From: Bryoerythrophyllum caledonicum
Lineage: Eukaryota > Streptophyta > Bryopsida > Pottiales > Pottiaceae
Reading direction: 5' to 3'
NCBI GenBank assembly: GCA_963971425.1
Contig: OZ020515.1
Location: forward strand, 17,624,291-17,688,290
Length of the DNA: 64,000 bases
The notes below the pieces were generated by a model. It searched no databases, had not been told where the DNA came from, and saw only the letters and a list, made by a program, of their open reading frames with translations. This document shows, piece by piece, positions 3,336-60,050 of the stretch (positions are counted from its first letter, which is position 1; each line of letters starts with the position of its first letter). A program made the translations under genes and the position numbers.

Positions 3336-3546
3336 TAACTTAAGTTAGGGTCCCCGAGGTTGAAGTGTTAGTATTTACATGCTTTTCAGCATGACTCTTG
3401 TGCTTTACCTCTGAGAGTCTCATTGGATGAGAATGGAGCATATGTTCGTGAATGTTGTAAGCAAATGGCATGAATTGATTGATACCCTCCTTCCTTGTGA
3501 GTTTTGCATTTTTTTTGTATGGAATTGTGTTGATGATGCACTCACC

Positions 3547-3581
3547 ATGAACACGCAATTAAGCAATTATGCACTTGGCCA
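3547..3581 (+). repeat. Left terminal inverted repeat of giant element
   Basis: These 35 bp match the reverse complement of 17151-17185 with one mismatch. An AAGTGCACTT palindrome follows shortly inside. Confidence 0.75.
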
Positions 3582-4118
3582 TTTAAAAGTGCACTTGGGT
3601 ACAACGGCGGCCATTGCGAACAAAAGTGGCAAAATTGAAAAAAAAAATAAATAAAAAAAAAAAAATGTTTTCCAAAGAAAAAAAAATTGAGCTTCTGCAA
3701 CAATATTACGTACAATCATGGTTGTTTATATTGGAAGCGATTTTTTGGCATTTTCAACTAATTTGTGGTGGCCCCTCGTTAATACTAGATAAATGTGTAT
3801 TTAATATAGTTTCACAATATTTCAAAGATAGATTTGAAGGATTGTAGTATATAAACAAGAGTAATCCAAAAAACCATACTTTATGCAAGGGTTGGCAATT
3901 GATTAAAAGATATTCTACGTACTACATAATGCATACAATGGTGAAAACTAAATATAGATGCTTCAACAATTGGACTTAGCACCAATATTAAACACAATTT
4001 TATTCTAAAGGATTAATGATATAACGTCTTAGATCACCCTTAGAATATACTACTCTTACACATACACTATATATTAATTACCATACACAACTAGTACACC
4101 CTAAAAAAGGCACACTAT

Positions 4119-7100
4119 CTACTCCATAGAATTTAGGGTTGCTTGCAAACGGTCGTCATCGATAGCTTCGGTTTGCATTGCAATATATTGTAGGATGTGA
4201 GCCTTTGCCGATTGAAGAATACGAATCCTGCTTTCAACCTGCACTCCAAATACATTGCGCTTTTTCCACCCGCTGGCCCCGGACATGGTTCTTTCCAATG
4301 TGTCTACCCATGAAAAAATGCATGCATCTTTGACTACCCAACTATGGCTCTCCCCAGATGGCTCCCAGAATGAATCCATGCAATTTGCATACCGTTGTGC
4401 AGAAGACCCATGTCCATCAGCAACCCCCCTTTGGATGATGGGCCAATACCAACAAACCTTAATCTTAAGTCTCCATCGGTTTTTTCTTTCCTCAATCACA
4501 TTCCCCACATAGAATGGAACACCGCCTTCTATCTCTGCTCGATCAACACTCAAGGCTACAAACTGTCCACAACGGATATCAGATTGTGGATTAAATGGTG
4601 GAAATGGGTCGTGATTACCTTCATACATTGCTCCTTCTTCGGCGCGTTCCTCAACATAGTTGCGCTCTGTTTGTTGTGCCCTACGCACTGCTTGATTAGA
4701 GGGTCTTCCTCTACGAGGACCAAAGTATCCTCGAGCCTCGGCATTTGGAAGCATGGCCACTACCTGCTCTACGACATCTACCTCGCGATTTTCTTCACTT
4801 GCACCATCCATTACATCCAAAGATGCGCTCCCTGTAGGTCCGGTATTGGAGAACTCTGAAGGCCAAAACGGTGAGGTACGATGCTCATTGCTACGATCTT
4901 TGTGGGGAAATTCAGCTAAATAGAGTTTCAATCTTTCAGCCTCTACTTTTGCCTCACGATTCTTGTCCTCATGCTGCAACCTTTGAATGCACCTTTGTTT
5001 ATATGCAATGAAGTCATCCAACGCCTTCAACTCCCGTTCGTCCGCTGCAAATACTTCCGCAAACGATGGTCGTTCATCTCTATTTGGCAACGACCTCAAA
5101 GTTTTCGTCCCTGCCTCCGGTCCCCATGGATCCTTGCAATAACGCTTGTGTTGTACTCGAACCTCACGAGTCCCTGCTCGATTGTCCATATAGAATCGCA
5201 TGTGGTGCGGAAATGTTATGCCCACCAATGAATCCTGACCTGTCAGTAAGTGAGGAGTTATGAACAATTTCCAATCCCATACATTCTCTAACAGCCGGGC
5301 GCTAACAAATGCCTCCGTAGGTGAGGTTCCTCGTTCTATAAGACTAATCATTTCCTTCAACGAGTCGACGTCCGACCTCTTCAACGTATTTGATATACAA
5401 CTGAAGCGTTGATCAATATCTTCGTGGGTATGGCCCACTATAAGAAAAGATAGTTCCACCTCCTGAAAAAACCCCAATCCCACCAATGTAGCACATAGAG
5501 CAAACATATAAATGTTTTTGTTCTCACGCGGGCAGTTGTCGGCCTGAATTCGCAGTGTTGGTGGCAAAAAGCCCCTCTTCCGCAGCACATCTCCAATCAC
5601 GTACAACAATGTACTCACGACTTGATTGCTATCGTGTTTGTAATGAGCCCCAAACCACACGTCGCAATATAAACCAATCCCATGTACAAGAGCACCACAC
5701 AGATGGGTCTTCACAAACCGATGTTCAATGTTCTTCAGAGTCTGACGCATCCTCGGTACCATGGTCGTGTTTTGGTCCATGCCATCCACTATGATGCACA
5801 TGTACAACTCAGGGCTAATATAACACGACCTCTTGAATATCCAATAATGCCTACGTTCTTCCATCTGGTTGCGCAGATGCAACATAAACAACTCCTTTAT
5901 CTTTATCTTTGCATCCGCATTGGTGGTTCCCTCCATGGCACATTTATACTCCCAACAATGATAACACTTTGAGAATCTCGAGAACGGAGGTACCTGAACG
6001 TGGGGATACTTGATGCGCCACATCCTACGGAACGAACTCATAGAAATGGTTTCTCCATTACAAATTCTCTTGACCTCCTCGTTCACGTAATTGAATACAT
6101 CAAATTTGGTTGTATTCATAGGAAGGAGAATGAGAGGCACCACTTCGTTGTCACTCTTACGGCGAATACAACGATGAGGTTGAGGACAACCAGCTTCATC
6201 GACAAACGATTTAAAGCAAGCCTCTGCTGCAGACATTCTAGTACTCTCTCTTATCGGATCTGAAAGCGTATTGCCGTGAATCGATGTCACTCTTCCATAT
6301 ATTAGACAGTCCTTCTTCAATTGCTTAAAGCGCCTCTGTGAATATCCAACCCCAAGAGCGTAGCAAGCATTGCAAACTTCTTTCCCATCTAACTTTGTTA
6401 CAAACTTGTCTCGACGAGTTCCTTCCGTCCTTGTGTAAAAAGAAACCAGCATCTGTCTCATCCATGTACTTCGAACTGAAAACTCACTACCCCATGCATT
6501 ATATCGCATGTCCAATAGATACCTTGCTGGAACGTCCCTCAAACAATTGCGTTTGCATCCTCCTTGTGCCATTGCAATTTGCACGCTTCTAAGCGATACC
6601 GTAGATGGTGCAGCTTCTGTCAATGATGGCTCCCTTGAATATCTCCTTCTCCTATTTTGCATAGAATATGGACGACGTGCTGGTCTAACATAAGCAAATC
6701 CATCTACATGGGGCAAATCTCGGATATTTGAGGGAGCAGATTGGGAAAACGGCGAATTTTCATCTATGGCGTTTGAAGCATGACTACTGCGTCGAGACCT
6801 CTGGGTGGATCCTGGTGTGTTGATGAACTCAGGAAAATCAAATTCTGGGGCCATCACTTCTGCAGGTGCTATCTGTGATCCAATGTCACCATGGCCACCT
6901 GTGATATCAGGTTCTACAGCCACTACACGTAGCAAAGATCGATGCCAACGAATGATCAAGCCCACACACATGCCAAGGCGTTCTCCTACAATCTCTCCGG
7001 TCCAATGCAATGCATCATCTACTCTAATGATATGCACCGCCACCTCGAATGGGAACAACTTTGATCCATTCAATTCCATGCCATTTTTGAATGCATGCTC

Positions 7101-7349
7101 CCTAGTTGCTAAGCCCACCACATCTCCTCTTTCTGAAAGCAATTCTACTACCCTTTCCAATTCAGAAGTCATGATCCCAACAGATCTCTGTTGAATTTGC
7201 CTTGCACGTGCTGCTCGTACTAATCGGGCCCCCACAGAGCTATTAGAAGGCATATTGTCCCTTTCGATGTGTGGCCGTATCAAAGGAGTCTGAATTGTGC
7301 GGCTCTCCATTATCACTATTGAAAAAATAGGAACATTATGGCTGCACAT
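4119..7349 (-). CDS. DUF7869-like DDE-type transposase candidate
   Basis: An intact ORF of 1076 codons; the more likely start is Met14 (7310), because a polypyrimidine-AG acceptor lies just before it. Visible parts, numbered from 7349: cysteine pairs at 265/269, 326/329 and 463/466/470 (possible zinc sites). Then comes an RNase H-like core with VDGMDQ (D522, D525), QADNCPRE (D604) and GHTHEDIDQ (H640, E643, D644, D646). A coiled basic stretch at about 770-810 follows, then an AT-hook-like GPRRGRPS near 877-884. Last is a chromo/BAH-like segment (VPFYVGNVIEERKNRWRLK) near 944-962. This core matches the DUF7869 family of repeat-associated proteins as I recall it. The role in DNA cutting and joining is inferred from the acidic triad. 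The stop is TAG. No frameshift is seen, suggesting recent activity or constraint. Confidence 0.72.
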   Translation of the reverse strand: MCSHNVPIFSIVIMESRTIQTPLIRPHIERDNMPSNSSVGARLVRAARARQIQQRSVGIMTSELERVVELLSERGDVVGLATREHAFKNGMELNGSKLFPFEVAVHIIRVDDALHWTGEIVGERLGMCVGLIIRWHRSLLRVVAVEPDITGGHGDIGSQIAPAEVMAPEFDFPEFINTPGSTQRSRRSSHASNAIDENSPFSQSAPSNIRDLPHVDGFAYVRPARRPYSMQNRRRRYSREPSLTEAAPSTVSLRSVQIAMAQGGCKRNCLRDVPARYLLDMRYNAWGSEFSVRSTWMRQMLVSFYTRTEGTRRDKFVTKLDGKEVCNACYALGVGYSQRRFKQLKKDCLIYGRVTSIHGNTLSDPIRESTRMSAAEACFKSFVDEAGCPQPHRCIRRKSDNEVVPLILLPMNTTKFDVFNYVNEEVKRICNGETISMSSFRRMWRIKYPHVQVPPFSRFSKCYHCWEYKCAMEGTTNADAKIKIKELFMLHLRNQMEERRHYWIFKRSCYISPELYMCIIVDGMDQNTTMVPRMRQTLKNIEHRFVKTHLCGALVHGIGLYCDVWFGAHYKHDSNQVVSTLLYVIGDVLRKRGFLPPTLRIQADNCPRENKNIYMFALCATLVGLGFFQEVELSFLIVGHTHEDIDQRFSCISNTLKRSDVDSLKEMISLIERGTSPTEAFVSARLLENVWDWKLFITPHLLTGQDSLVGITFPHHMRFYMDNRAGTREVRVQHKRYCKDPWGPEAGTKTLRSLPNRDERPSFAEVFAADERELKALDDFIAYKQRCIQRLQHEDKNREAKVEAERLKLYLAEFPHKDRSNEHRTSPFWPSEFSNTGPTGSASLDVMDGASEENREVDVVEQVVAMLPNAEARGYFGPRRGRPSNQAVRRAQQTERNYVEERAEEGAMYEGNHDPFPPFNPQSDIRCGQFVALSVDRAEIEGGVPFYVGNVIEERKNRWRLKIKVCWYWPIIQRGVADGHGSSAQRYANCMDSFWEPSGESHSWVVKDACIFSWVDTLERTMSGASGWKKRNVFGVQVESRIRILQSAKAHILQYIAMQTEAIDDDRLQATLNSME

Positions 7350-7527
7350 TAGTCAAAATACATGTACAAATTGTTAACCTTCAAAGCACCATTCATGTGA
7401 TAAAAGGTATGTTTCTAAACACATATTTACTGTTCAATATATGATGATGATATTGGACCTTTTAATAAAACTGCTTTGAAATGAGAAAATTAAGAATTTT
7501 TAGAACATGAACTCCTTGCACGGAGCC

Positions 7528-8477
7528 TTTACCCCTGAAGGTACAATGATAGTGTTACACCAAAAACACTTCTAAATTGTTGGATTCCAGTGCAACGAAC
7601 ACAAAAGGAAACAAAAACTTTTATTTCTAGTTTTGACCGTAGATTCTCAATTACGACTTATTAATTAATAATTAAAAAAACATTCATAAACTTTGACCGC
7701 ACGGATTGAAAGATTATAGTGTTTGAAGTGAAGCTTATGGTTCATTTACTTCCCTACGTGTAGTGGATCAGCACACTTTGACTTCACTTCGTGTCAATTT
7801 TTTTTTTATAGAAGGTCTAAATCCTTAACCATCTTGTTAAGCATGATGTTAGTTCCTTGTATACCAATTTTTAGAGGGAGAAAAAAGGTGTAGCATATTC
7901 AAAACAACTGTGCAAAGAGTCGAAGTTCGGAATTTGTTAATTCACACTGTAATTTTTTGTGAACTTAATATGTTTTAGATTGGTAATTGAAATGGTCAAT
8001 AAGAAGGTTTACACCACATATTGTTGTGGAAAAAAAAAGTGAAAAAATAAAAAGATATCTAGGTTTTATTTGGAAAACAAGAAGTTTTTTTGGTACCTTG
8101 CCCATCTCTGACTGACAATGTGTGAAAATGTTTGATTTGGGTTGGTATGCTATTTTTCAATAAAGACAAGAACTTATTTTGACAACATCAAGGGAAATAA
8201 TTTTACTTTTGAATACAGAAAATCTCACAATCAACTGAGTGTCCTAGCAAAAGTTTTTGGAGGTGCCCAACTTGTTTGCTCGGTCCATTTTAAATTTATA
8301 ACCCTATAATTTTTTGATCAAATGTCCAATTTAAGTAAAAATTGTTTTCCCACTAAGGTTTTGGTAATGCCTTTCTAAAGTAAAATTTACAAAGAGGAAT
8401 GTTGGACATTGACACCATAGAAACCTGACCAAACATTCAACAAGCCAATTTTTGACACTTGATCCATTAGGGGTTAA
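7528..8477 (+). mobile_element. TTAA-type MITE, about 950 bp
   Basis: The left end is decayed (TTTACCCCTGAAGG) and the right end is ccattaggggTTAA. The interior (accgcacggattgaaag) is shared with copies at 8768, 27290, 42052 and 44492. It lies inside the giant element and so inserted after it. Confidence 0.75.
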
Positions 8478-8767
8478 ATATGCTACACCTCTTTTGCATT
8501 CCTAAACATTGGTGAATAATGGAACTAATCATTCTTCACATGATGATAATGAACCTAGATCATGTGTGATGCAATCTTTTGAATCCAAGTGAACTGAAAC
8601 GAAGGGAATTCACTGAACCTAGGGAAGAAAATGAACCATGTTGTCTACTTGCTATGATTGACACCATTGGAACTTGTTACAATCGCTAATTAAATAATGG
8701 ATTTGTATGTCCACATAAAGGTTATTATACAAACAACATAGTACAAAAGATCAATCAAGAATCAATC

Positions 8768-9519
8768 TTAACCCCTAAGGTATCGTGACAGTTTTACACC
8801 AAAACCACTTCAAACTAAATGGATTCTAGTGCAACGAATAAAGAAGGAAATCAAAACTTTGATTTTTAGTTCTGACCGTAGGATCTCAATAAAGGCTTAT
8901 TAAGTAATACATGTACAAAATTTCAAAAACTTTGTCCCCACGGTTTAAAAAATTATAGTGTTTGAAGTCAACCAAATGGTTCATTTTCTTCCCTGCGTTT
9001 AGTGGATCAACAGACCTTGACTTCTGTTGGTGTCAAAAAAATTCACTACAAAAGGTCTAAATCTATTACCATCTTGTTAAGCATGATGTTAGCTCCTTAC
9101 ACACCATTTTTTAGAGGTAGAGACCGGGTGTAGCATATTCAAAACAAGTGTGCAAGGAGTGGAGGCTTGAAATTTGTTAATTCACAGTTTCACTAATTTT
9201 AACTTAATATGTTTTTGATTGACAATCCGAATGGTTAATATGAAGGTTTACATTACATATTGATGTGGAAAAAATAAAAAGTGAAAAATATGAAAATATC
9301 TAGGTTTTATTTGGAAAACAAGAAGTTTTTTTGGTACCTTGCTCGACAATGAGTGACAATGTGTGAAAATGTTTGACTTGGGTTGGTATGTTATTTTTCA
9401 TGTTGATAATGTCTTTTTATTGTAAAAATTTCAAAGAAGAATGTTGGAAATTGACACGATAGGAACCTGACCGAACTTTCAAAAAGCCCTTTTTGGACAC
9501 TTGGTACCTTAGGGGTTAA
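8768..9519 (+). mobile_element. TTAA-type MITE, 752 bp
   Basis: It starts TTAACCCCTAAGGTA and ends taccttaggggTTAA, giving TIRs of about 15 bp that begin with C after TTAA. It is shorter than the 947-bp copy at 27290 through an internal deletion near the right end. Confidence 0.82.
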
Positions 9520-10339
9520 ACTTGTATAAAAACAAATGTTTACCTCAAGATACGTTGTAGGTGTTAGCGGTACACGCACTGATGCTTTATGGCGTTCAAC
9601 ATTATATCACTATTCCGTCGTTGTTGTTGGACATGTTTCTCAACCCTTCCCCCTTTACCTGCAACACATGCATAAAGTTTATATGGTAAACTATGTGATA
9701 AAAAATCCTATATGTATCTTCGTATTACATATAGCCCGAAATTTTAATATAATATATTGAAAAAATTAACATATGGAGAAACAAAGCAAAAGGTCCAAAG
9801 TTCTTAAAGTCAAATTTTTATTAGTAAGCTTGAGGCACAAGGTTCCAACATGGATAAAAGGTTTCTATGCAAACCTAGAGGTCATTTCTCTTCGCAGTTT
9901 CTAAGGTGGGCACTCTTACAATCAAAACCTCAAGGCTATGTGCATTTTTACTTCATTCACTAATTTCTGTCAAATTTGTATACTGTGTAGATTGGAGGAA
10001 ATTTGCACATCGAGGAGATTTTCGCGATCTTGGTAAGTTTCTAACTTCGTTTCAATTCTGAATCTGAGGAACTCTAGGGTTGTGTTCATGATGATTGAAG
10101 TTCAGACAAAATTAGGTTAGTGGTAGGTGAGTACCAATGTTTAAATACACAAATGAGAACACCAACTGGAGAATGTACAAAAATTGCAATTTCAAAAAGA
10201 AAACATGATAGCAGTCAACAACTAGAGAGTGCAAGCATTGTTATACTGAAAATATGACACCAAAACCTCATAAAGTGAGTCAAAAGAGCAACTCGTAGTA
10301 TTGCACAAAATCCTCAATATGGCACATCAGCGCACTACT

Positions 10340-10515
10340 TGAAACCCTAGCCTCTACACACAAGAACCCAAACCGTAGTTCCAAAACCCTAGCCGCTATC
10401 ACCAAATCCTAGCCACCACCACCAAACCCTAGCCATCGCCGCCAAAACCTAGCCGCCGCCATCAAACTCTAGCCGCCGCCACCAAACCCTAGCCGCCACA
10501 ACCACAAATCCAAAC
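10340..10515 (+). repeat. Telobox-containing minisatellite
   Basis: About nine imperfect units of roughly 18-21 bp of the type aaaccctagccgccgccacc. Each carries an AAACCCTA-like telobox. It lies between the two large ORFs of the giant element, upstream of the 1321-codon ORF. Confidence 0.75.
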
Positions 10516-10583
10516 CCTAGTCAACGTATTTGCGTGACGTGGAAATCGCGTGACGCCTCGCAAAGTAACCTTGGAGCTAGAGC

Positions 10584-11274
10584 TGTGCGCGCGCACACCC
10601 CCTACTGCTGGTGCTCCTCCACCAAGCTAATCCAAACACAAGGAGGCGAAAATCAAAACAATAGCTTCCTCCAAGATCAAGTGTGGCAGTCAACCTCCTT
10701 GTTGCGCGGCTTTGCAGGTGCGACATCTCCTTCCCTTTTCATTGCCGCGGCCTCCTATCNNNNNNNNNNNNNNNNNNNNNNNNNNNNNNNNNNNNNNNNN
10801 NNNNNNNNNNNNNNNNNNNNNNNNNNNNNNNNNNNNNNNNNNNNNNNNNNNNNNNNNNNNNNNNNNNNNNNNNNNNNNNNNNNNNNNNNNNNNNNNNNNN
10901 NNNNNNNNNNNNNNNNNNNNNNNNNNNNNNNNNNNNNNNNNNNNNNNNNNNNNNNNNNNCCAAGCCCTGCCGGCACAGGCCCTGGCCGTGCGTAGGCGTG
11001 AGAATTTTTTTTTTTCCTCTTTCTTCCCCCCACTCACCCACACACAATTTCCCTCACCCACTCTCTCCTTCTCTCTCCTAAACCCTTGCCGCCCACAACT
11101 TCACTCACACCTCCCCACGACTTCACTCCCCTCCCTCACACCTTCCCCGCCCACATAAACCCATCTCTCCCACACATCTCCTCACACCTCCCACACATTG
11201 TCTCTCTCCTTCTAACCCTACCCTCTCACTCACAGCCTCATCACAACTTCTACCAGGGGTGTGCGCGCGCACAC
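10584..11274. mobile_element. Possible TIR element with TGTGCGCGCGCACA ends, spanning a gap
   Basis: The left end is TGTGCGCGCGCACACCCCCT. The right end, read on the other strand, is TGTGCGCGCGCACACCCCTG. Between them are C-rich sequence and 200 undetermined bases. No target duplication was recognised, so the element is only a suggestion. Confidence 0.35.
10760..10959. other. Assembly gap, 200 N
   Basis: A run of exactly 200 undetermined bases, probably a gap of arbitrary size. Reading frames crossing it are meaningless. Confidence 0.99.
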
Positions 11275-11278
11275 CCCT
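11255..11278. repeat. 24-bp perfect palindrome
   Basis: The half-site AGGGGTGTGCGC is followed by its exact reverse complement with no spacer. A 14-bp core (TGTGCGCGCGCACA) recurs at 10584. Confidence 0.9.
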
Positions 11279-11528
11279 CCTTGGGCTACCCACTTGAGCA
11301 AAGGATTGATGTCCTTATTGATACCCGGAAATCCAAACCCTAATCCAAACCCTAATTTGATACACCGGTTGATAACCGCTTGTGGTACCAAGGACCTCAT
11401 ACCCTGGTCGTCATACCCTAGATATTGATACCCCAAATACCTTGGTCCATAAATAATGTAGAGAATATCTAACCCAAATATTGTTAAAATTGCTTGTTTT
11501 TGTGAAATTAGAAAGCCTCTACAATTAA

Positions 11529-12560
11529 TGTTTTTTTTTAGTTTTAACCGTAGGATCTGAATGATGACTTATTAAGTAATATGCTCACAAAATTTCATAA
11601 AGTTTCACCGCACGGATTGAAAGATTATAATGTTTGAAGTAGTGAAAATGCTCATTTTCTTCCCTGCGTTTTCTGGATCAGCAGTCTTTGATTTCAATTG
11701 GTGTCACATTTTTGCACTATAAAAGGTCTCAATTAATTACCATAATGTTAAGCATGATGTTAGTTTGCTACATACCGATTTTTAGAGTTAGAAAAGGGGT
11801 GTAGCATATTCAAAAAAATTGTGCAATGAGTGGGGGTTCAAAAATTCACCATTCACGTTATGTTTTTTTGTGAACTTGATATCGTTTGAAATGAGAATCC
11901 AAATGGTCAATACGAAGGTTTACATCACATAATGCCGTAGAAAAAATCAAAAGTGAATCATACAAAGATCTTAAAGTTTTATGTGGAAAGGTAGAAGTTT
12001 TTTCGTACTCTCCTCGAAAATGTGTGACAATGTGTGAAAATAATTGACTTGGATTACTATGCTTTTTCACCAAAGAACTAACAACATGGTTAACACGATG
12101 GTATTGGATTTAGATCTCGTGTAGTGCAACAATTTTTAGGGGTAGACAAGGGGTGTAGCATATTTTTTTTAAATGTGCAATGAGTGGAGGTTCAGAAATT
12201 CACAATTAACATTATGTTTTTTTGTGAACTCGATATTGTTTTAAATGAGAATCCAAATGGTAAATAAGAAGTTTTACATCACATAATGCTGTAGGCATAA
12301 TCAAAAGTGAATCGTACGAAGTTCTCGTAGTTTTATGTGGAAAGGTAGAAGTTTTCTGGTATTCTCCCCGAAAATGTGTGACAATGTGTGAAAATAATTG
12401 ACTTGGATGAATATGCTATTTCACCAAAGAACTAACAACATGGTTAACACGATGGTATTGGATTTAGATCTTGTGTAGTGCAAAAGTTTTTAGAGGTAGA
12501 CAAGGGGTGTTGCATGTTCAAAAATATTGTGCAATGGGTGGTGGTTCAAAAATTCTTATT
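11529..12560 (+). repeat. TTAA-MITE remnant with 354-bp tandem duplication
   Basis: The interior matches the forward TTAA-type MITE (accgtaggatctgaatga, ccgcacggattgaaag) but the left end is lost. From 11779 a 354-bp unit repeats: 11779-12132, 12133-12486, then a partial third unit from 12487. It ends about 60 bp before the start codon of the 1321-codon ORF. Confidence 0.75.
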
Positions 12561-12599
12561 CCATACTAATAGTGACTATTGTTTTGTAACGATATACAG

Positions 12600-12618
12600 G
12601 TTTTTTGAGTGTTGCGTT
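12600..12618 (+). promoter_or_regulatory. Likely 3' splice site and 5' leader of the large ORF
   Basis: A branch-point-like tactaat, a T-rich tract and cag|G at 12597-12600 precede the ATG at 12619. A matching strong donor (TTG|GTAAGT) lies near 10032. This suggests a 5'-UTR intron, which would place the tandem array and the gap inside an intron. Confidence 0.4.
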
Positions 12619-15600
12619 ATGGCACCACCAAATATTGATAGAATCTGGGAGAGCCACGGCTGGTGGATTGCAGAAGTGGATGAGTCGAGCGCCTTCTTAT
12701 GGGTGACGGATTATCCCTTTGAGCTGGGAAAGCGTACATCGGCGTTGGGGAAGAGTTTTGGCAAAATCCAAGCAATCACTCTTCGACGTGATGATATGGT
12801 ATACGTTACTTGCGCAGTGGGTCCAGGTCAATCGGAAGTGAAGACTTCTCTTTCGAAGAAGTTGTTTTTGGCACCTGTCCCTTTGAATCTTCTTCAAAAT
12901 CCAGGTCAGGTGAAATTCCTCAAATCATTGCAGACGTTTTAGTTAAACATCTCTCTTGCGGTACGTACTGCTAGACACAACAACGTCTTATCCTGTTTAG
13001 CGTTATCACCGGAGATGGTGCTGAAGGCTAAGAAGATTATGGAGGAACATATTAGATATGAAGCATTTCGAAAGAGGGACCCATCACGTGCGACAACTCA
13101 AGCCCCACCAGCAGAACCAGAAGAAACAGAAGTTTATCGAGTTCTTGCTGAGCCGTTGCAACTGGATTGGCGACCACTGGAGGGGGGGAGGGGAAGTGGA
13201 GGCCAACATCCCAGCACAACTTCTGAGGTACAGACATTACCGAATCCTCCATTAACGAGTAGACGTCCTACGAAGAGGCCACGGCGTGTTGACAGTGATG
13301 TAGCTTCTGGTTCAAGAGAAAGCCCATCAAGTTTGGATCCAAGCGGGAGGAGGTTGATTGGCAGAAGTGCAAGATCGGGTGGCAGGATTCCTAGGTCGGG
13401 GCCCAGGACGTCTAATGGTCATCGTAGGGCCCCTACATCTACACCGGGAGATGTAGCTGATTTGTCAGCCGTGGCCCCGGAGGGAGAAGATTTTCACAAC
13501 CTTCCAGATAGTATACCAGAGGATTTTGAAGACAATGCGGAGATACCACAGAATGTTCCAACTCCTATGAATTTAAAAGCACCAGTGCCTACAACGGAGG
13601 AGATTGCGAAAGGATCAGTGTGGGGGAATTTTGTGTTTAAGGCACACATAGACCGCATTGTCTGTGTGGAGAACCCGGAAACGAACCACCGGGTTTTATC
13701 ACAGAAGAGGGTCAGAGAAGTATTTAACCGCTTAAGAGACCCAGAATCTGCGAGTCGGGTGAGTAGATTGGTACTTCAACCGATCAGATACATCGTACGT
13801 ACTACCACCGATGATAGTGTCATTGAGAAGGAGGAGCTGCCACTTCCGTTGGTAGGAACCGCACGAGAGTTTGAGCGCATGTTCATTGCACACGGGAGTG
13901 CTTCTGCACAGGGTGCGATGGGATCCCAGTATTCTTGGCTTCAAGATCATATCATTTGGGAACCGGTGGATGGGCAACACATAGTAGCAGCTTGTAAGTT
14001 TGCACAGCAGTAGTGGAGAGATGGTACTATGCCTTTAAATGAGTACCTGGACACGTTCGAGCGGCGGGAGGCCTCTTTTGTGGTGTATGATGATCGTCGC
14101 TTTTACATTGAGAAGTCTGCGCGGATCAACGTGGCAGAGTTCCAGAGATAGTCATATTCTACCATGGAGGAGGATTTTAGGAAGATCCGTCAGATTTGGA
14201 ATCTATATGGGAGGCCTGATAGCACACTATGTGCGGACGATGCACGCAGGGCTGTTGCTTTGGTGAGTGCGGCAAGTGCAGTACATAAGTTGTCCAAGGG
14301 GGATGGAGTTGTCACGGTGAAGAGATTGGCCAAAAACATGGAGGATCTTACCAATCATGCATGGAATCCGAGCAATGACTGCTTCGAAGCTATCATTCAA
14401 GTATGCAAGGACTACGAAGACGGCATTCTCTTTTACAGCAAGGAGGAAGAGGACAAGTGGAAGGACATGGCGAGGAAGAAAGAGTTGGATCCAAATGTGG
14501 ACGTACGACCAACAAGAAAGGAGATGACGCAGAATTGGTTGAGGCCGTTAGGTAGGGTTCCGAATCCATATTATCTTCGGTTGGCTAAGTCTGCTGCAGC
14601 GAAGCCGGTGGGGGAGGATGGAGTAAGACCACGTCAAGCATATTACTTCGACGGTGTAAAAGACAAGAATCCACATCCTCGTACTATTGCCGGTGTGGTT
14701 GACCGATATCAGAGACGAGAAGCTGTGATGAATTCCATCCGTTGGTTGATGGTAGAGAACAAGGAAAGTACACCTGATTCCATGGAGGATTTCTTTCGTA
14801 TCCGTGTAGGGAAGTATTTTCCGAGGAGTAACGCACAACTTGATACATTTGGGAAGCTTTTGAATGCTGCCACGAAAAAAGCTTGGACAGCTCCTGTGCG
14901 GGGGAAGGTGTCTAAACTGGAAGACATAGGCTACCTCATCCCTCCTTCCATCAGGTTTCATTATGGTGACATTGCAGCAGGGGGGCGTGGATACATTGGA
15001 CTGTTCGTGGATGTGGGAGGACATGCTACTGCTAATTGGGAATGGCAGATGGAAGTGAAGAGGCCAGGCCAGAGCGACACAGAGAATCTTCTTCCGGTTC
15101 GGTGTAGAAGAGGGTTATTCCGCACCGACTACATAGAGTTGGGGAAACCATGTTTGTGGGTGATTGATTGTCGACGTGGCGGTGGGAGGCATGGAGATGG
15201 TCATTGGGGAGACGCCCAGTTATCCGCAGTTTTTGCACAGCTGGCATTATGGATGGCAAATATTGAACGATGGAACGTGATCTTCTTGTTACTAGCGGCC
15301 GTGTATGCCAACGAAGATTTTTTCACGAAGGTGAAGCTTCCAGAGGGATGTACTATGCGACGTGGATGCTGGGCATTTGATCCCAACTCGGTTAATCCCT
15401 ATGCTCTTGATTTTACAGAGAATGGGCGTCTGGAGCAAGTAGTACAACCGATTGGCGATGTTGTGATTTGTATGCAGCACCCTCTGGGTACATCTCCTGG
15501 CCCGAACTATGTTTCTGGAGACGTTCCACTTCCACTTGTTTTCTTGGATCACTGGAGTGAGGCACGCCAACCCTGTGAAGTTGATTCACTTGAGAGATCT

Positions 15601-16584
15601 CCATCAGAGCTGGCAAGACTAGTGGGCTCATACTTGCCCCGTAGTTGGGGTTTAGTGGCGTGTAACATATCTACGGCCATTCCCACGATCCTTGAAGGAG
15701 ATTTCCAGGGATTTGAGGTTTTCATCGTTGACGATTGTACGGACAGAGTTTCATTTTTGTACAACGAGTTGTCCGACAATTTCCAAGGACAACTATTGGT
15801 CAGGACTGGTGGAACAAGTACTGGTTGCAACATCGTACCTGAGACCGAAGAGGCGGTTGGTGGAGTGAGGAATGAAGATGACAATGAGGATGGAGGTGGT
15901 TTAAATGAGAGATTGCCACGTTCAGGTACCACTGAAGATTTCTCATCTCGTAGTGGTTCAGACGCCGATGAAGATAGAGTGAACCAGTCTCCTCCAAGAG
16001 ATAGGATTCCATCAACGCAGCGGGCGGTGGGAGATACTTCAGGGCAGACATCTGCAACACCTACAGAGAGGATGCAAGATACCGGTGTAGTGGATGTTGG
16101 TTTGGCGGCAGGGTCAGGAGGGGGGCGTACATTTGATGGTCCTAGGCTGGAGATGGAGGAAGAAGAATTGGATTCATTGGAATTTTTTTCGGTGCAGAGG
16201 AGGATTCGACAGCCTTCGATGGCTTTTCAATCAGAGCCTGTATCGGAGACAGAAGAGACGTTCGGAGGTACTCAGAGTGATACCGGACTAGGTTTGCCTT
16301 CCGTTCCAAGATCTAGCGTATCCGAGGACATCATTGCATTTCAGGGGGCCTTCTCGTTAGAGCGAGAGATGTCCTTCAATCCAGAGGATGGCTTTTTCTA
16401 CAATGATGATAGGGTAAGGCGTACGCGGGAGGGTGTTCCTGGCGATTACCGATATGTTGAGTGTGCGTCCATTGGCATCGAAGGTGTGGGAGATCGTCCA
16501 GTGCAGGATCATGAACTGTCCGCTATGGTAGGTAGCGCCATTGGACACGTGGAGGGAGTCGTTCCGCCAGAAGATGAGCTGTGA
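12619..16584 (+). pseudogene. Large ORF of giant element, three in-frame TAG codons
   Basis: One frame of 1321 codons from ATG 12619 to TGA 16582, interrupted only by TAG at codons 108 (12940), 465 (14011) and 511 (14149). No TAA, TGA or frameshift is seen. I do not recognise the protein. The N-terminus has WWIAEVDESSAFLW. Residues about 130-310 are low-complexity and basic. Residues about 330-510 resemble a ParB/sulfiredoxin domain (IDRIVCVENPETNHRVL, then VDGQHIVAAC with D451-H454). Downstream come FVDVGGHATANWEW, VIDCRRGGGRHGDGHWGDAQ (around D850) and an acidic C-terminal tail. Read strictly, it is a broken gene. TAG readthrough or recent C-to-T decay of CAG would both explain the pattern. 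Other genes in the window end with TAG, so the code itself is standard. Confidence 0.65.
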
Positions 16585-17150
16585 GTCGTGGAGCTATATA
16601 CTATTGTAGAACATGCACGCAGTTTAGGTGACCAGTACGTTAGTATAATGTAGTTTGAGATGTGTCTATCGTTCGGTGGGTGGTATATATTTATATATTG
16701 GGTGGTCTATATGATATGTTTGATTTTAGAATTCCTCGGCAATAGTGTGGAATTGCTTGATTATGTATGTTTTTGCATTATAAAATACAGTGAGGTACTT
16801 TACACTGTCTTAGGAAATTGCATATATATTTTTGTATCTCTTACACATTGTATTTGTAGTGCACTACTCTAAAATCCTATAATAACTCATAACAAATTTA
16901 TAATCTCTTTGGGCACATGATTATAATTTTGTAGCAGGATTTGTAAACTAGATTAGAAATCATATATTTTCTAAAAAAAGGTAGAAAATGTAAAAATTAT
17001 ATTACTGATATGAACATGAAGATGCCAAGGTATGACACAACAAACACCAAAAATTTTTGACAAAAAACATACTAAACTTTTGCCAAATTTTGATTTAAAA
17101 AAAAGTTATGAGCAAATAACTTGCGGCTTTCTACCAGCAAGCAGTGCACT
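16585..17150. other. AT-rich subterminal region, no gene seen
   Basis: This lies between the large ORF and the right inverted repeat. It is AT-rich with no supported coding sequence and presumably holds the 3' end of the large ORF's transcript. Confidence 0.5.
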
Positions 17151-17185
17151 TGGCTAAGTGCATAATTGCTTAATTGCGTGTTCAT
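17151..17185 (-). repeat. Right terminal inverted repeat of giant element
   Basis: Reverse complement of 3547-3581 with a single G/A difference. AGTGCACT lies directly inside it, as on the left. Confidence 0.75.
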
Positions 17186-18337
17186 GTTGTTTATGCAGCT
17201 GAGAAAGTATTCTCTCTGCAAGTTCCATATCATGCCCACACATACCTTAGATTATATTGCCATCATAATCAAAAAGGCCACATCACCAAACTGGAAAGAA
17301 CTTACCACAACTTGAATAGTAGCAAAATGGCCATGGCCCGTAATCGCCCAAGGTATGCATTGACCGCAAATCCACGAAGGAAAGGGCTCAATGGTCATAG
17401 ATAAGCTTGCGGCCATGGACTTAGCTTTACCGGACAGAGTGTATTTTATCATATAGATAGAAAATTGTGAGATTTTTTACACAACTAACTTCACTTCCTT
17501 TGCAGCTTTATTATAGAAAAGCTTTTGATAGTGCAGAAATTTCATACCAAGAGGTTTGAAAGTTTCTTCCACTAATAACTAGGCACAAAACTCAAGTTTT
17601 TGTACCTTATTTTCCTACTTGATGAAAATAGAGTACTAATCCATATTTTCACCGTCTGAGTTTACTGCTAGTTCCTTGTCTGGTGGGCATGGTCTTAGAA
17701 GTGGAGCAAACAGACACTTTATTCACGCCAGTCTCCTTCGAGGATCGGCGTTCTTCTTCTTCATCGTGTGAGTTAAGAAAAACATAATGTATTTTTTGTG
17801 GTTTTTTACCCTTTCTTGTTGTAAGGTTGTTTTAGATATGCTATACACCTATAACATACCTTTAACATATTTTGAACAATAGTCTATCGTCCACAAGGGG
17901 AAGTAGTTTTATACGACTATCAATGTCATATGAACATAGATTTAAAGGTAGAAGGGCAAACAATTTATTCATGTCAACCTCTTTCAAAGACTTGAGTTCA
18001 TCTTTAGAATCTGTATCTTGAATAAGTACCTTACATCATATAGATTGTGATGGCAAAGAGTTGCAACTTTGCATAGTGTAGAGAATTTCATTTATATGAA
18101 TAACTTAGATTGTCAATCTTCTAAAATCAAGGTGCATGAAAACCACATTTTCAAGTAGAATTTTGCACTTTCAGTTGTAAGATCTTAAAATAGACTTCTA
18201 TATGAACATACCGCAAATTGTTCCTTACAATCCACCGCACGGATATGAAGATTACAGCATTTGAAGTGCAAGAAAAAGTTTATTTCTCCCACTGAGGTTT
18301 TAGTAATGTCCTTCTATAGTCAAAATTTCAGAGGTAT

Positions 18338-33238: not shown

Positions 33239-35223
33239 ATGAAGGAGAACACGACCAGGCCGGGCCAGTACGGCATGTTCGGCCTCGGCAAGAACCTGGT
33301 GTCCATGGCGGTCATGGTGCTGGCCCTCTGCGCCGCCTCGTTCTACCTCGGGGGTGCCTACTACGGCATCCCGGACAACAGTGGCGGATTCGACAGAGCC
33401 GGATGCATGCCCTTGCAGAAGGTGGAGGCTTTCCCGGAGTGCAACCTCACTACGCAGGACATGACTCCCTGTACCGACCCTAAGGCAAGCGTCGGAGACG
33501 AGAGAGAGAGAGAAAGAGCGGGGGGGAGAAGAGATCTCTAACTTTGTTGTGGGCTTTCCTTGCAGAGATGGAACCGGTACCCGAAGCAGAGGCTAGCGTT
33601 TCGCGAGCGACATTGTCCTCCTCGCTCTGAGCGGCTGCAGTGCCTGATTCCTCCTCCCGAAGGCTACAAGGCGCCCATCCCGTGGCCCAAGAGCAGAGAC
33701 GAGTGCTGGTACAAGAACGTGCCGTATGAATGGATCAACAGCGTGAAGGCGAACCAGAACTGGTTGAAGAAGAAGGGCGAGAAGTTCATCTTCCCCGGAG
33801 GTGGTACCATGTTCCCCAATGGTGTCAGCGAGTATGTGGATCGCCTCGCAGAGCTCTTGCCAGGCATCAAGGACGGCACCATCCGCACTGCTCTTGACAC
33901 GGGATGCGGGGTACGGTCGCGCGTTCTCAGTGCATCCTTGCGAGAGTTGGTGATGGGTTTCTGGTTGTGAGAGAATTTGATGCAAGAGCCTTTCTCACAG
34001 AGGCGTTGTGTGTTTTGCAGGTTGCTAGTTGGGGAGGCGACTTGCTCGACAGAGGCATCCTTACAATGTCGCTCGCGCCGCGTGACAACCATGAAGCGCA
34101 GGTGCAGTTCGCGCTGGAGCGTGGAGTGCCAGCAATGCTGGGGATTATTTCCACGCAAAGGATGCCGTACCCGTCGAACTCGTTCGACATGGCGCACTGC
34201 TCTCGCTGCCTGATCCCCTGGACGGAGTTCGGCGGCGTGCTTCTGATGGAGATTGACCGCGTGCTGCGCCCGGGGGGCTTCTGGGTGCTGTCCGGCCCGC
34301 CCATCAACTACCAGCAGCACTGGAAGGGGTGGGAATCCTCCGAGGAAGCGGAGAAGACGCTCCTCGACAAGATCGAGAAGCTCCTCGGCGACATGTGCTA
34401 CAAGAAGTACGCCATGAAAGGGGACCTCGCCGTCTGGCAGAAGCCGCAAGACAGCGCCTGCTACGAGGATCGCAACGACGACGTGTACCCGCCGATGTGC
34501 GACGACGCGATCGAGCCGGACGCGGCGTGGTACGTCCCCATGCGCCCCTGCGTGGTGCCTCAGCACGCCGGGATGAAGACGCTCGCTGTGGGCGCCACCC
34601 CGAAATGGCCCGAGCGCCTCCTGACCCCGCCCGACCGCCTGCGTATCACGCACGGCACGAGCGCGGGCCGCTTCAACGACGACACCAAGCTCTGGAAGGG
34701 CCGCGTGAAGCACTACAAGCGCCTGGTGCCAGAACTCGCCCGCTCCGGCGGCGTGATCCGCAACGTGATGGACATGTACACGGCCTTCGGCGGATTCGCC
34801 GCGGCGCTCAACGACGACAAGGTGTGGGTCATGAACGTGAACTCGCCGTACGCACCCAACACGCTCGGCATCGTGTACGACCGCGGGCTCATCGGCACCT
34901 ACAACGACTGGTGCGAGGCGTTCTCCACGTATCCGCGCACCTACGACCTTCTCCACGTCGCGGGCCTGTTCTCTGAGGAGGGCCACCGCTGCGAGATGAA
35001 GGATGTGATGCTGGAGATGGACAGGATTCTGCGCCCGGGCGGAATCGTGATTGTGCGCGACGGGCACGCGTACCTCGAGCAGGCCAATCTGCTCGCGACG
35101 GCCATGCGGTGGAAGTGCACTCGCCATGACACCGATGTCGGCCCTGAGGATAGCGATGGGTTGCTCATCTGCAGGAAATCCTTCTGGCAGAGCAAGGAAG
35201 CCAACAGCGGCGACGAGGAGTGA
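33239..35223 (+). CDS. PMT-type methyltransferase (pectin, Golgi)
   Basis: Three coding exons, 33239-33484, 33566-33910 and 34021-35223, give 597 residues, the usual PMT length. The protein is type II: a short N-terminus, one membrane helix near residues 18-42, then a lumenal domain. The SAM-binding region is DTGCGVASWGGDLLDRG, split by intron 2. PRDNHEAQVQFALERG, HCSRCLIPW and RPGGFWVLSGPP follow. The second half has RNVMDMYTAFGGFAAAL and YDLLHV, as in Arabidopsis PMT2/PMT20-like proteins. Family members act in the Golgi in homogalacturonan methyl-esterification; the exact substrate here is inferred. Intron 1 uses a GC donor (AAG|GCAAGC) with a normal AG. Intron 2 is GT-AG. A further 5'-UTR intron probably ends at cag|GTGG (33213). 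GC-rich third positions create a long antisense shadow ORF. Confidence 0.95.
33485..33565 (+). other. GC-AG intron of the PMT gene
   Basis: The donor AAG|GCAAGC fits the known GC-AG consensus. The reading frame and conserved CTDPK-RW junction require exactly this splice. It contains a short GA microsatellite. Confidence 0.85.
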
Positions 35224-42051: not shown

Positions 42052-42983
42052 TTAACTCCTAAGAGCCCAAGTGTACGTGGGGCATACGTTTTGGATTTTA
42101 GGCAAGTTCCTAAAATTTGAAAAAAATATTTTTAAAAAAAAAAACTCTTACACTAGATTGTCCCTGATAAGAGCTCCATAGAGATTTCTCAATTCTTATT
42201 TTTGGATTCATGGTTTGAAAGTTAGTACCACTCAAAGTTCAAAATGGGGACTTTAGGCAGCTCCAAAATTTTGCTAGAAGTCTCTATTGACATTGAGATT
42301 TTCCATACATGTAGAGAATATTACTTTCTATGAAGATTTCAAAAAACTTCTTGTCTTTAGTGTAAAAAAACATTTTATCTCAAGTCAAACATTTTTACAC
42401 ATTTCGGGCAAGCGGGAAAAAAACTTCATCTTTTCTACATAAAACCTAGAGATCATCATATTTTTCACTTTTTATTTTTTCTACAAAAACATGTGGTGTG
42501 AACCTTGTTGTCGACTGTTTAGATTATCATTCTAAAACATATTAAGTTCTCAAAAAAATAAATTGTCAGTTGACAATTTTTGAACCTCCACTCCTTGCAC
42601 ACTTGTTCCGAATATGCTACACCCCTTCTCTACTTTTAAAAAATTGTTGTATATGGAACTAACATCATGCTCAACACAATGGTAAGAGATTTAGACCTTG
42701 TGTAGTGCAAAAATTCAATACCAAGTGAAGTCAAAGTCTGCTGATCCACTCAACGCAGGGAAGAAAATAAACCATTTTTTTGGCTTCAAACACAATAATC
42801 TTTCAATCTGTGGGGTCTAAGTGTATGAAATTTTGCGAGTATGTTACTTAGTAAGTCTTTATGGAGATCCTATGGTCAAAAGGATAAATATAAGGTTTTA
42901 TTTCCTTCCTTACTCATTGCACTAGAACCAACAATTTTGAAGTGTTTTTGGTGTGAAATTGTCACGGGCTTTTTAGGGGTTAA
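42052..42983 (-). mobile_element. TTAA-type MITE, 932 bp
   Basis: It starts TTAACTCCTAAGAGCCCAAG and ends ctttttaggggTTAA, reverse orientation relative to the 27290 copy. Confidence 0.82.
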
Positions 42984-54018: not shown

Positions 54019-55460
54019 CTACAACTTCTTGCGAATGAAGTGATGTTGCACATCAATGTGCTTCATGCGTGAGTGGTGTGTTGGGTTCTTTGCAAGGGCT
54101 ATGCACCCTTGGTTGTCACACATGATGGTCGTTGCTCCTTCTTGAACAAATCCCACATCCGCCAAGGGCTTGTGAAGCCAAATGGCCTCCTTCGTACATT
54201 GGCTAGTTGCCATGTACTCCGCCTCCGTCTTTGAGAAGACAATGGTGGGTTGTCTCTTGCAATTCCAAGAGATAGCACCATCTCCAACAAAGAACACATG
54301 CCCCGCTGTTGAACGACGCTCGTTCGCATCTCTAGCCCAATCCGCATCGCAATAGTCCCACAAAGCAATGTCTTTACCGCCAAGCCACAATTTGAGGTCC
54401 TTGGTACCTTGCAAGTACCATATGATACGCTTCACTACAATCCAATGAGATAGACCAGCTCTAGACATGAATAAGCTTACCATGTTCACTACAAAAGTAA
54501 GGTCAGCTCGTGTGGCCACCATGGCATACATCGATGATCCAACTCCACTCTTGTATGGCACGCCTTCCATCTCACCTTGAATGGCTTGAAACACTTCCTC
54601 CAAGATCTCCAACAACCTGACATTCTTATCAAGTGGTGTACTGATGGGCTTGCATTCTTCCATGTTGAAGCGCTTGAGCACCTTCTCAATGTATTTCTTT
54701 TGGCTCATGGTAATGATGCGTGCCTTGCGATCCCTCACAAATTCTACACCAAGACAAAACTTCAACTCGCGAAGATTGATCATGTCAAACACCGCGTCGG
54801 GCTTGCCTTTGAGCCACGTCAACTTCGCCAAAAGGCTAGCCAAGATGATCAAATCATCCACATAGATGAGCACTATCAACAAGTACTCACCCGTTTGCTT
54901 GATGTACAATGAGTGATCCGCTTCACTTCTTGTAAAACCTTCTTTGATGAAAAATGAGCCAATCTGTTGGTATCAAGCCTTTGGTGATTGCCTAAATCTG
55001 TACAACGACTTCTCAAGCTTGCACACAAAATGCTCAAAGTCTCTCTTTTCAAAACCTTGTGGTTGGCTCATGTAAAAAACTTCTTCCAAATCACCATTCA
55101 AAATGCGGTCTTTACATCCATTTGATGGATTTCCAAATCCAACGCGGCTCCAAGTGCAAGAATACACCGAATGGTGTTGAACTTTGCAACAAGAGCAGAG
55201 GTCTCAAGGAAGTCCACTCCTTCAACTTGAGAGTATTCTTTGCCACCAACCGCATCTTGTGGCGCACAACTTGATCCAAAGTGTCATTCTTTGTCCAAAA
55301 CAACCACTTTGCATCCAACGCTCTTGCGACCCTTTAGAAGGGGAGCCAACTCCCAAGTTTCATTTTTCATAAGCGAGTCATATTTGTCTTGCATGGCCGC
55401 CTCTCACTTGCTTGCATCCTCGGATCGCATGGCTTCACACACATTCAATAGATCCCCAAG
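54019..55460 (-). pseudogene. Copia reverse transcriptase and RNase H
   Basis: An open stretch at 54019-54909 (about 296 codons) holds the RT palm motif YVDDLIIL, LGVEFVRD, the RNase H start CDADWARDANERRSTAGH, and the terminal MKHIDVQHHFIRKKL. Upstream sequence (54910-55460: WELAPLLKG, then GDLEEVFYMSQPQGFE) is the RT N-terminal half, with stops and frameshifts. It would copy the element's RNA to DNA if intact. Confidence 0.9.
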
Positions 55461-59192: not shown

Positions 59193-60038
59193 CTACCTAC
59201 AAATGGACTTAGAATGAGGTCCATCTTGAGTTGCAAATGCGTAGTCATTGTCCTCTTGGCATGGTTGGCATTCTCTTTCTCCTTTACTTGATTGCGTTGT
59301 CCCGCTCTCCTTTCTTCGGCTTGAAGCAATTTTGTGCAAAATGGCCCGATTTGCCACAATTGTAACATATATTGGCTTCGCCATGTGAGGATGAGCTCCC
59401 CCCTTGCTTTGCCTTGATAACAAGACCGCATCATTGCCATGCGCCTCCTTCTCCTTGTGCTTAGACACTTTGTGCATCATCCGTGCAACCACAAACTCTA
59501 TGGTCAGGTCCTTCATGCCCCACGTATCTAAGATGGTGATCAAGTGCTCAAATGAGGGCGGCAAACTCTCAAACAACCTCATCACCACATCTTCATCTTT
59601 AATGGGTACCTCCAAGCAATAGAGTTGATTCGCAAGTACCTTAACTTGGTTGATATGAGTCAATAGGTCATCACCTTCTTGCATCTTGATTGTGAAGAAC
59701 TTGCAACGAATGAAAGGGATGTTGGACAGGCTCTTTGTTTTGAGGATGTTGCACAAAGACTTCCATGCTTCTGTCGGTCCTTTGCAACTCTTGATGTGGG
59801 CAAATTGGTTGTTCACCAAATTGAGCCCAATGACAAACATCGCCTTCTTCACACGCTGATTGTAGTTGTTTCTCTCCTTTGGATCATTGTCGGAGGATGG
59901 AGGTTCCTTGGAGTCTTCAGCAATCTCCCAATGGTCCATGGACTCCAACACCATCTTCATCTTCAACTTCCAAAGGTTGAAGTTGTCCCCCTTGAGCTTG
60001 TCAATGACCCTAATACTCTCATTGTTGATTGTAGCCAT
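59193..60038 (-). pseudogene. Copia gag, frameshifted
   Basis: ATG at 60038 starts MATINNESIRVIDKLKGDNF, the UBN2-type gag of copia. IKMQEGDDLLTHINQVK and LPPSFEHLI are conserved. The zinc knuckle CYNCGKSGHFAQNC is present near 59330-59371 in another frame, so a frameshift lies just before it. Gag would form the virus-like particle that packages the element's RNA. Confidence 0.88.
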
Positions 60039-60050
60039 GATGACACTCAA

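Follow-up and report, generated by a model that had tools for sequence, protein, structure and literature searches.

A probable giant DNA transposon pairing a DUF7869 protein with a second large, divergent gene in the moss Bryoerythrophyllum caledonicum

Two large open reading frames (ORFs) that point away from each other and are enclosed by a nearly perfect inverted repeat raise the question of whether a single mobile element of unusual size resides in the genome of the moss Bryoerythrophyllum caledonicum. The locus lies in a stretch of 64,000 nucleotides, referred to here in its entirety as the window (GenBank assembly GCA_963971425.1, contig OZ020515.1, positions 17,624,291 to 17,688,290 of the forward strand). 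A reading made from the letters alone, without database searches (the sequence-only reading), had proposed one element of about 13.6 kb encoding a transposase and a second large protein. Analysis of the window and of the host genome (437 Mb, 894 contigs) indicates that the region very probably represents a copy of a giant class II DNA transposon, bounded by 32-bp terminal inverted repeats (TIRs) and carrying a DUF7869 transposase (ORF1) and a divergently oriented second gene (ORF2). The proposal of one mobile element is borne out by dispersed TIRs, target-site duplications (TSDs) of 4 bp, and recent identical copies with different flanks.

The element spans positions 3550-17182 of the window (13,633 bp). 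Its ends were recognized from an inverted repeat of 39 nt with 95% identity (3543-3581 and 17151-17189), the best stretch of which matches at 34 of 35 positions; when the two end regions were shuffled 12 times, the best match reached 22-24 of 35. The repeat of 35 bp described in the sequence-only reading as exactly bracketing the ORFs is real but too long: the TIR proper measures 32 bp and the remainder belongs to the CATG TSD, which was drawn into the repeat because CATG is palindromic and thus its own reverse complement. The element termini read AACACG and lack the CACTA ends that mark EnSpm/CACTA elements. The TSD is 4 bp, compared with 8 bp in Sola1; TSDs are 8 bp in KDZ and 2-3 bp in EnSpm. 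The features of the element are as follows.

3546-3549, no strand: left TSD, CATG, identical to 17183-17186
3550-3581, plus strand: left TIR, 32 bp, beginning AACACGCAATTAAGCAATTATGCACTT
4119-7349, minus strand: ORF1, 1076 aa, uninterrupted, pointing outward, probable DDE/D transposase
5139-5720, minus strand: DUF7869 domain (PF25273) of ORF1, E 1.8e-50
within 5139-5720, minus strand: key residues of ORF1 (D521, D603-N604, H639-T-H641, D643, D645) from a 30-sequence alignment
7350-12618, no strand: centre between the divergent ORF1 and ORF2, with repeats of ~0.24-0.30 kb and a gap of 200 N
12619-16584, plus strand: ORF2, a frame of 1321 codons, broken here, accessory protein
15154-15798, plus strand: best conserved part of ORF2, from LWVIDCRRGGG onward, tentatively read as methyltransferase-like
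17151-17182, minus strand: right TIR, 32 bp, matching the left TIR at 31 of 32 positions
17183-17186, no strand: right TSD, CATG, identical to 3546-3549

Because the centre contains a 200-N assembly gap (10760-10959, in a GC-rich part of the window), the true length of the element may differ from 13,633 bp. Of the five copies compared over their whole length, four have gaps of 200 N, and so does the C4 stretch considered below (C numbers denote contigs of the assembly); such a gap may conceal coding or hairpin sequence.

The distribution of the ends in the host genome establishes that they belong to a family. The 31-base TIR end, allowing up to 3 mismatches, was matched 531+510 times, while a reversed-pattern control gave 0+0 matches; the family thus comprises hundreds of copies whose ends are fixed. 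In the first 100 ends listed, all 33 adjacent pairs (33/33) were flanked by identical 4-bp sequences, whereas 1000 re-pairings gave 5.3 such pairs on average and never more than 11, the list being ranked towards CATG. A TSD-neutral pattern detected 811 ends genome-wide (399+412), and exactly 4 bp were shared by 13 of the 18 adjacent pairs within the first 100 of these. An unbiased set of copies consisted of ten ORF1 places taken in rank order, skipping the window's own and those on short contigs (C864, C561 and C22). The left TIR was exact in all ten, 0.3-0.9 kb beyond ORF1; ORF2 and the right TIR were present in eight (one right TIR with 1 mismatch), and every one of these eight copies had an identical 4-bp TSD at its two ends: CTAC, AGTT, TGTT, ACCA, TCAA, TGTT, GAAA and TATG. 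A 4-bp target is duplicated on insertion, and its sequence is not fixed. Of the further copies with the same ends and a constant duplication that the sequence-only reading had called for, the constant length of 4 bp was confirmed, whereas the duplicated sequence varies; its own counter-possibility, that the repeat is a dispersed sequence unlinked to the ORFs, fails, the repeat being dispersed yet located beside ORF1 in 10/10 copies.

The sequences around the TSDs revealed a target preference. At positions −7, −6 and −5, outside the TSD, the bases C, A and C occurred at 47, 61 and 50 of 100 TSD-neutral ends, and the four TSD positions in the same ends were 67-84% A+T. Because CAC is favoured outside the TSD, read from both ends, the target tends to CAC-NNNN-GTG.

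Two copies, C4:32007886 and C6:6455058, show 100% identity across 4,943 bp that begins with the first TIR base and holds as far as the sequence was fetched; their 4-bp flanks differ (CTTG vs CTAC). Because the identical sequence starts at the TIR and the flanks are different, the family has transposed recently, as judged from the copies. Spanning matches were found for 5 of 17 joined flanks in fetched sequence. One junction, C3:8978383, was discounted, its spanning match being its own simple-repeat flank, which left four informative cases. At these four, copies of dispersed repeats (best matches 68-86%) run uninterrupted through the insertion point, where each has a single 4-mer that has usually diverged. 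An 85.6% match at 42052-42502 of the same window is the clearest; its junction has six matches, two of them gapped at the site. The empty sites that the earlier reading had asked for were thus found as uninterrupted target repeats at four insertion points, all of them paralogous.

Five copies compared end to end span 12.5-13.9 kb. Shorter copies, of which five (4.4-8.5 kb) were fetched on the basis of paired TIRs whose TSDs match, retain the ends and have lost inner parts; they are derivatives that probably moved in trans. A size class of 4.4 kb was noted in the CATG-ranked list, five of the 33 pairs measuring 4,426-4,470 bp; one copy of this class, C3:8978383-8983416, keeps the ends around a diverged ORF1 remnant (65-68%) and represents a distinct derivative family.

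Are the two ORFs cargo of the same element? Among the 43 best ORF1 places, at least 19 had a listed ORF2 within 15 kb in divergent orientation, where ~0.07 would be expected by chance, and among further ORF1 places the same held for at least 9 of 23. No other orientation of the pair was seen within 15 kb among the places listed. Three more of the 43 proved to be paired with ORF2 in fetched loci, bringing the count to at least 22/43. The family carries the two genes together in divergent orientation, and the sequence-only reading's own grounds for rejection, that the two would never co-occur elsewhere, do not apply. One ORF2 lies ~19 kb from ORF1 on C4, on the same strand, possibly as the second half of copy C4:32007886 inverted at an assembly gap.

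ORF1 was confirmed to be open over 1076 codons, intronless and outward-pointing, as first described, with its 3' end ~540-570 bp from the left TIR. At least 43 near-full ORF1 places with 94-100% identity exist in the host genome, the window's own included, and 21 of the 43 listed are stop-free. DUF7869 is its sole Pfam match. An alignment of 30 sequences, from close relatives to proteins of sea urchin, lancelet and mussel, revealed a conserved core (residue numbers start from residue 2 of the ORF): D521 and H639-T-H641 are present in 30/30 rows, and D603, N604, D643 and D645 in at least 90%. The PF25273 proteins of sea urchin, lancelet and mussel, at 22-24% identity over the whole alignment, share the D ... 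DN ... GHTHEDIDQ core, although the mussel row is without the DN stretch. The order of elements (strand-D, strand-DN, helix, strand, HxHxDxD) is compatible with an RNase H-like DDE/D core, a fold assignment based on motif order and low-confidence secondary structure. Searches of the PDB by sequence gave no match with single queries and three matches at E 0.58-3.4 with profiles. In viral contigs, 87 and 37 pattern matches to the two proteins were obtained, none of which was upheld by tblastn, leaving no link to viruses there.

Taken with the DUF7869 family described next, which has its own TIRs and TSDs, the conserved acidic core supports the proposal that ORF1 is the transposase, and a DDE/D transposase is most likely what this protein is. 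ORF1 would bind the TIRs, cut through an RNase H-like triad composed of D521, D603 and either D643 or D645, and insert the ends into target DNA through cuts spaced by 4 bp, preferring CAC-NNNN-GTG.

The same genome contains a second DUF7869 family with a diverged TIR, AACATGGAATTCGCTAAATATGCACTTGGCCA, which differs from the first at 7 of 27 positions and was located 711-806 bp beyond the ORF1 match in three of nine places examined. This family has 31+31 exact ends, and 10 of 13 end pairs are flanked by 4-bp TSDs. In one of its elements, the best match to ORF2 in the opposite 10 kb (3.7 kb unread) had E 0.037 over 45 residues, and the same stretch contains no stop-free frame above 161 codons; in another 10-kb stretch beside ORF1, which has a 200-N gap, ORF2 was likewise not found. 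Because this family has DUF7869, TIR and TSD with no detected ORF2, it is DUF7869 that goes with the ends and the TSD, and ORF2 seems to be optional for DUF7869 elements. For the assignment of ORF1 as the transposase, this genetic evidence outweighs that of the core motifs. Two end pairs of the second family (C3:28589980-28600820 and C7:2639041-2654460) show the same 10-base flank reading outward, that is, inverted and not direct, which is an odd arrangement or an assembly effect. A further DUF7869 protein, at C14:4752041-4754962 (41% to P0021), is among the matches listed; no end resembling the first-family TIR lies alongside, and no ORF2 was found in 10 kb containing an N gap. The protein may come from an older copy of an element or from a gene that has been domesticated.

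ORF2 had been described as an intronless frame of 1321 codons. In the window this does not hold: in-frame TAG stops at 12940, 14011 and 14149 split it in four, and the longest ORFs left measure 332 and 806 aa. Introns at the stops were considered and rejected, the relatives being open and collinear through these positions. A protein search recovered eight relatives with 48-68% identity: five measure 1271-1344 aa, one that starts late has 1205 aa, and two are pieces of 584 and 493 aa; the six of 1205-1344 aa are open throughout. Counting the window's own, the host genome holds at least 56 near-full ORF2 places; among the 56 listed, 17 have an open frame of 1348 codons with the matched part stop-free, and ORF2 is open over 1321 aa in four of eight fetched copies. 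With P0019, a more distant relative, as the query, at least 37 near-full places at 53-55% were obtained, of which 8 are shared with the 56. ORF2 is a true single-exon gene of ~1321 aa, intact in other copies, so that the second large protein of the sequence-only reading stands, with the copy in the window broken. By a simple Nei-Gojobori count in which pairs are not independent, dN/dS was 0.21-0.43 for ORF1 in 9 of 10 pairs (the remaining pair is identical) and 0.17-0.35, with dS up to 1.04, for ORF2 in 15 pairs of six intact copies; both are well below 1.

What might ORF2 do? By eye, the region 'VLSQKRV...VSKLVLRPI...IIWEPVDGQHIVAAC' resembles a ParB/DGQHR domain ('PVDGQHIVAA'), while 'LWVIDCRRGGG...GWGLVACSISTAIPTIL...GSEIIVIDD..ER' resembles a rearranged methyltransferase without the usual catalytic motif: a DPPY-type motif is expected in a methyltransferase where ORF2 has DCRRGGG. 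Profile, sequence and structure comparisons lent this domain reading no support. Pfam, PHROGs and NCBIfam returned nothing significant for ORF2 (best E-values 0.1-0.3), and neither the PDB search nor AlphaFold supported it, the model (pLDDT 34, 9 sequences) being too poor for a fold search. HHalign against a YbdM profile (15 sequences, YbdM plus 14 of the 47 loci fetched) scored 15.3, below both the reversed control (16.1) and the decoy PrmA (17.0); against a narrow YhdJ profile (7 sequences, YhdJ plus 6 of the 23 loci fetched) it scored 12.7, vs 10.6-12.0 for three decoys. Both results are at control level. A tblastn search of phages with the ORF2 relative P0013 gave no match. We treat a ParB/methyltransferase-like identity as a fair guess, somewhat short of even chances, and not as a result. 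ORF2 may be an accessory protein acting on the element's own DNA, perhaps a ParB/methyltransferase-like helper as in giant algal transposons, and one that would not be required by every DUF7869 element. If the domain reading is true, the protein would attach to the element and place marks on its DNA.

The interpretation of the locus as a class II, cut-and-paste element draws on TIRs with exact ends, a constant 4-bp TSD, uninterrupted (paralogous) targets, and copy identity that begins at the first TIR base. Several observations weigh against it or against the transposase assignment. Five of the 18 TSD-neutral pairs and three of the 13 second-family pairs lack a matching TSD; pairs of this kind are perhaps partly mispaired, as the pattern omitted ends with T at −10. 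Two of the ten ORF1-anchored copies were without ORF2 and the right end in the fetched stretch. None of the empty sites is allelic: all are paralogous (68-86%), and their junction 4-mer has diverged. In the ORF1 alignment one row has N for D603, and in others D643, D645 or the stretch itself is missing; the AlphaFold model of ORF1 (pLDDT 43, 13 sequences) is, like that of ORF2, too poor for a fold search.

Where does such an element belong? DUF7869 could be a transposase of the Sola superfamily (Sola2-like) and the element a giant plant member with an algal-type ParB-methyltransferase gene, a reading to which we give close to an even chance. The 'DNCxxxNKN ... GHTHxxxD' pattern of DUF7869 resembles one of Sola-like animal proteins, and the A+T content of the TSD positions is compatible with AT-rich TSDs. 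Slime-mould Sola2 elements with Fanzor1 are reported to have 4-bp TSDs, an 888-aa transposase and TIRs of 12-21 bp (PMC3627910); the moss element is alike in its 4-bp TSD, large transposase and carriage of a second large gene, but its TIRs are of 32 bp, its ORF2 looks unrelated to Fanzor1, and its TSDs include CTAC, AGTT, ACCA and TCAA where those given there consist of A/T only (AWWT, ATAT, AAAT, ATTT). Sola1-1_Ec32, a giant Sola-1 transposon of 21.5 kb from the brown alga Ectocarpus, is reported to encode an accessory protein of 1104 aa with ParB-like and N4C/N6A methyltransferase domains (PMC12477816). There as here, a large accessory gene (1104 aa there, ~1321 aa here) lies on the strand opposite the transposase in a giant DNA transposon, whereas the ParB and methyltransferase domains reported there are unconfirmed in ORF2. 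Giant algal KDZ and EnSpm transposons (PMC12477816) are of the same size class and have accessory genes, with transposase families that differ.

A literature search covering new superfamilies, Sola2, plant and algal ParB transposons, moss Sola and Sphagnum found no paper on this element among those listed; DUF7869 was named in no paper of the library searched, and PMC4455052, PMC10045372 and PMC6431247 gave nothing decisive. The element is a giant TIR transposon with a transposase family unassigned in the papers searched and an accessory arrangement with one clear precedent: the sequence-only reading's remark that it knew of no described element with this pair needs qualifying, since Sola1-1_Ec32 already places a large gene opposite a transposase.

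Alternatively, DUF7869 may constitute a transposase superfamily of its own in plants and animals, here with AACA-starting TIRs, 4-bp TSDs and a CAC-NNNN-GTG target, whose giant elements in this plant lineage would carry a new ORF2 of 1.3 kaa that marks or protects their own DNA; we hold this to be possible and would sooner doubt it than assert it. If true, the apparent absence of ORF2 from the sister family would make the role of ORF2 testable by comparison.

The giant transposon might also have captured ORF2 from its host as a Pack-type passenger that plays no part in transposition, as the gene's want of significant similarity to described families in the libraries searched and its absence from the stretches examined of the related DUF7869 family would allow. 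We consider this unlikely: the divergent pair is kept in at least 22/43 ORF1 places, and three ORF2 groups have diverged to dS 0.64-1.04. Because dN/dS across these groups is 0.31-0.35 at such distances, selection on ORF2 has been long-lasting. That the roles are exchanged, ORF2 being the transposase and ORF1 (DUF7869) the passenger, is very improbable even though ORF2 is about as conserved and as common as ORF1 among the places listed: in the second TIR/TSD family DUF7869 lies beside the TIR and the stretches examined contain no homologue of ORF2, DUF7869 is present in animals and has an acidic core, and the search with ORF2, which reaches close relatives only, returned near kin only (8 proteins, 48-68%). 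A segmental duplication or common dispersed repeat flanking two genes, with no mobile element, would suit the dispersal of the TIR and the dispersed repeats of the centre but is extremely unlikely, since copies whose flanks differ become identical from the first TIR base onward, the 4-bp duplications vary from copy to copy, and target repeats are uninterrupted elsewhere.

The repeats of the centre, of a few hundred bases each, lie at 7529-12555 and recur in the window (e.g. at 23-24 kb, 27-28 kb and 42-45 kb); they also occur inside the second DUF7869 family and are possibly a separate small mobile repeat. Elsewhere in the window are a gene for a 439-aa S-adenosylmethionine-dependent methyltransferase (33904-35223, plus strand; PF03141, E 2e-155) and pieces of Copia-type LTR retrotransposons (54019-54909 and 59193-60050, minus strand; RVT_2 and gag).

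DUF7869, a domain of plants and animals, is now tied to transposon ends, to a TSD and to recent movement, and many uncharacterized DUF7869 proteins become readable as probable transposases. The giant-transposon pattern of a large gene placed opposite the transposase is extended to a plant, and the coexistence of intact recent copies with a sister family in which ORF2 was not detected makes the role of the accessory gene directly testable.

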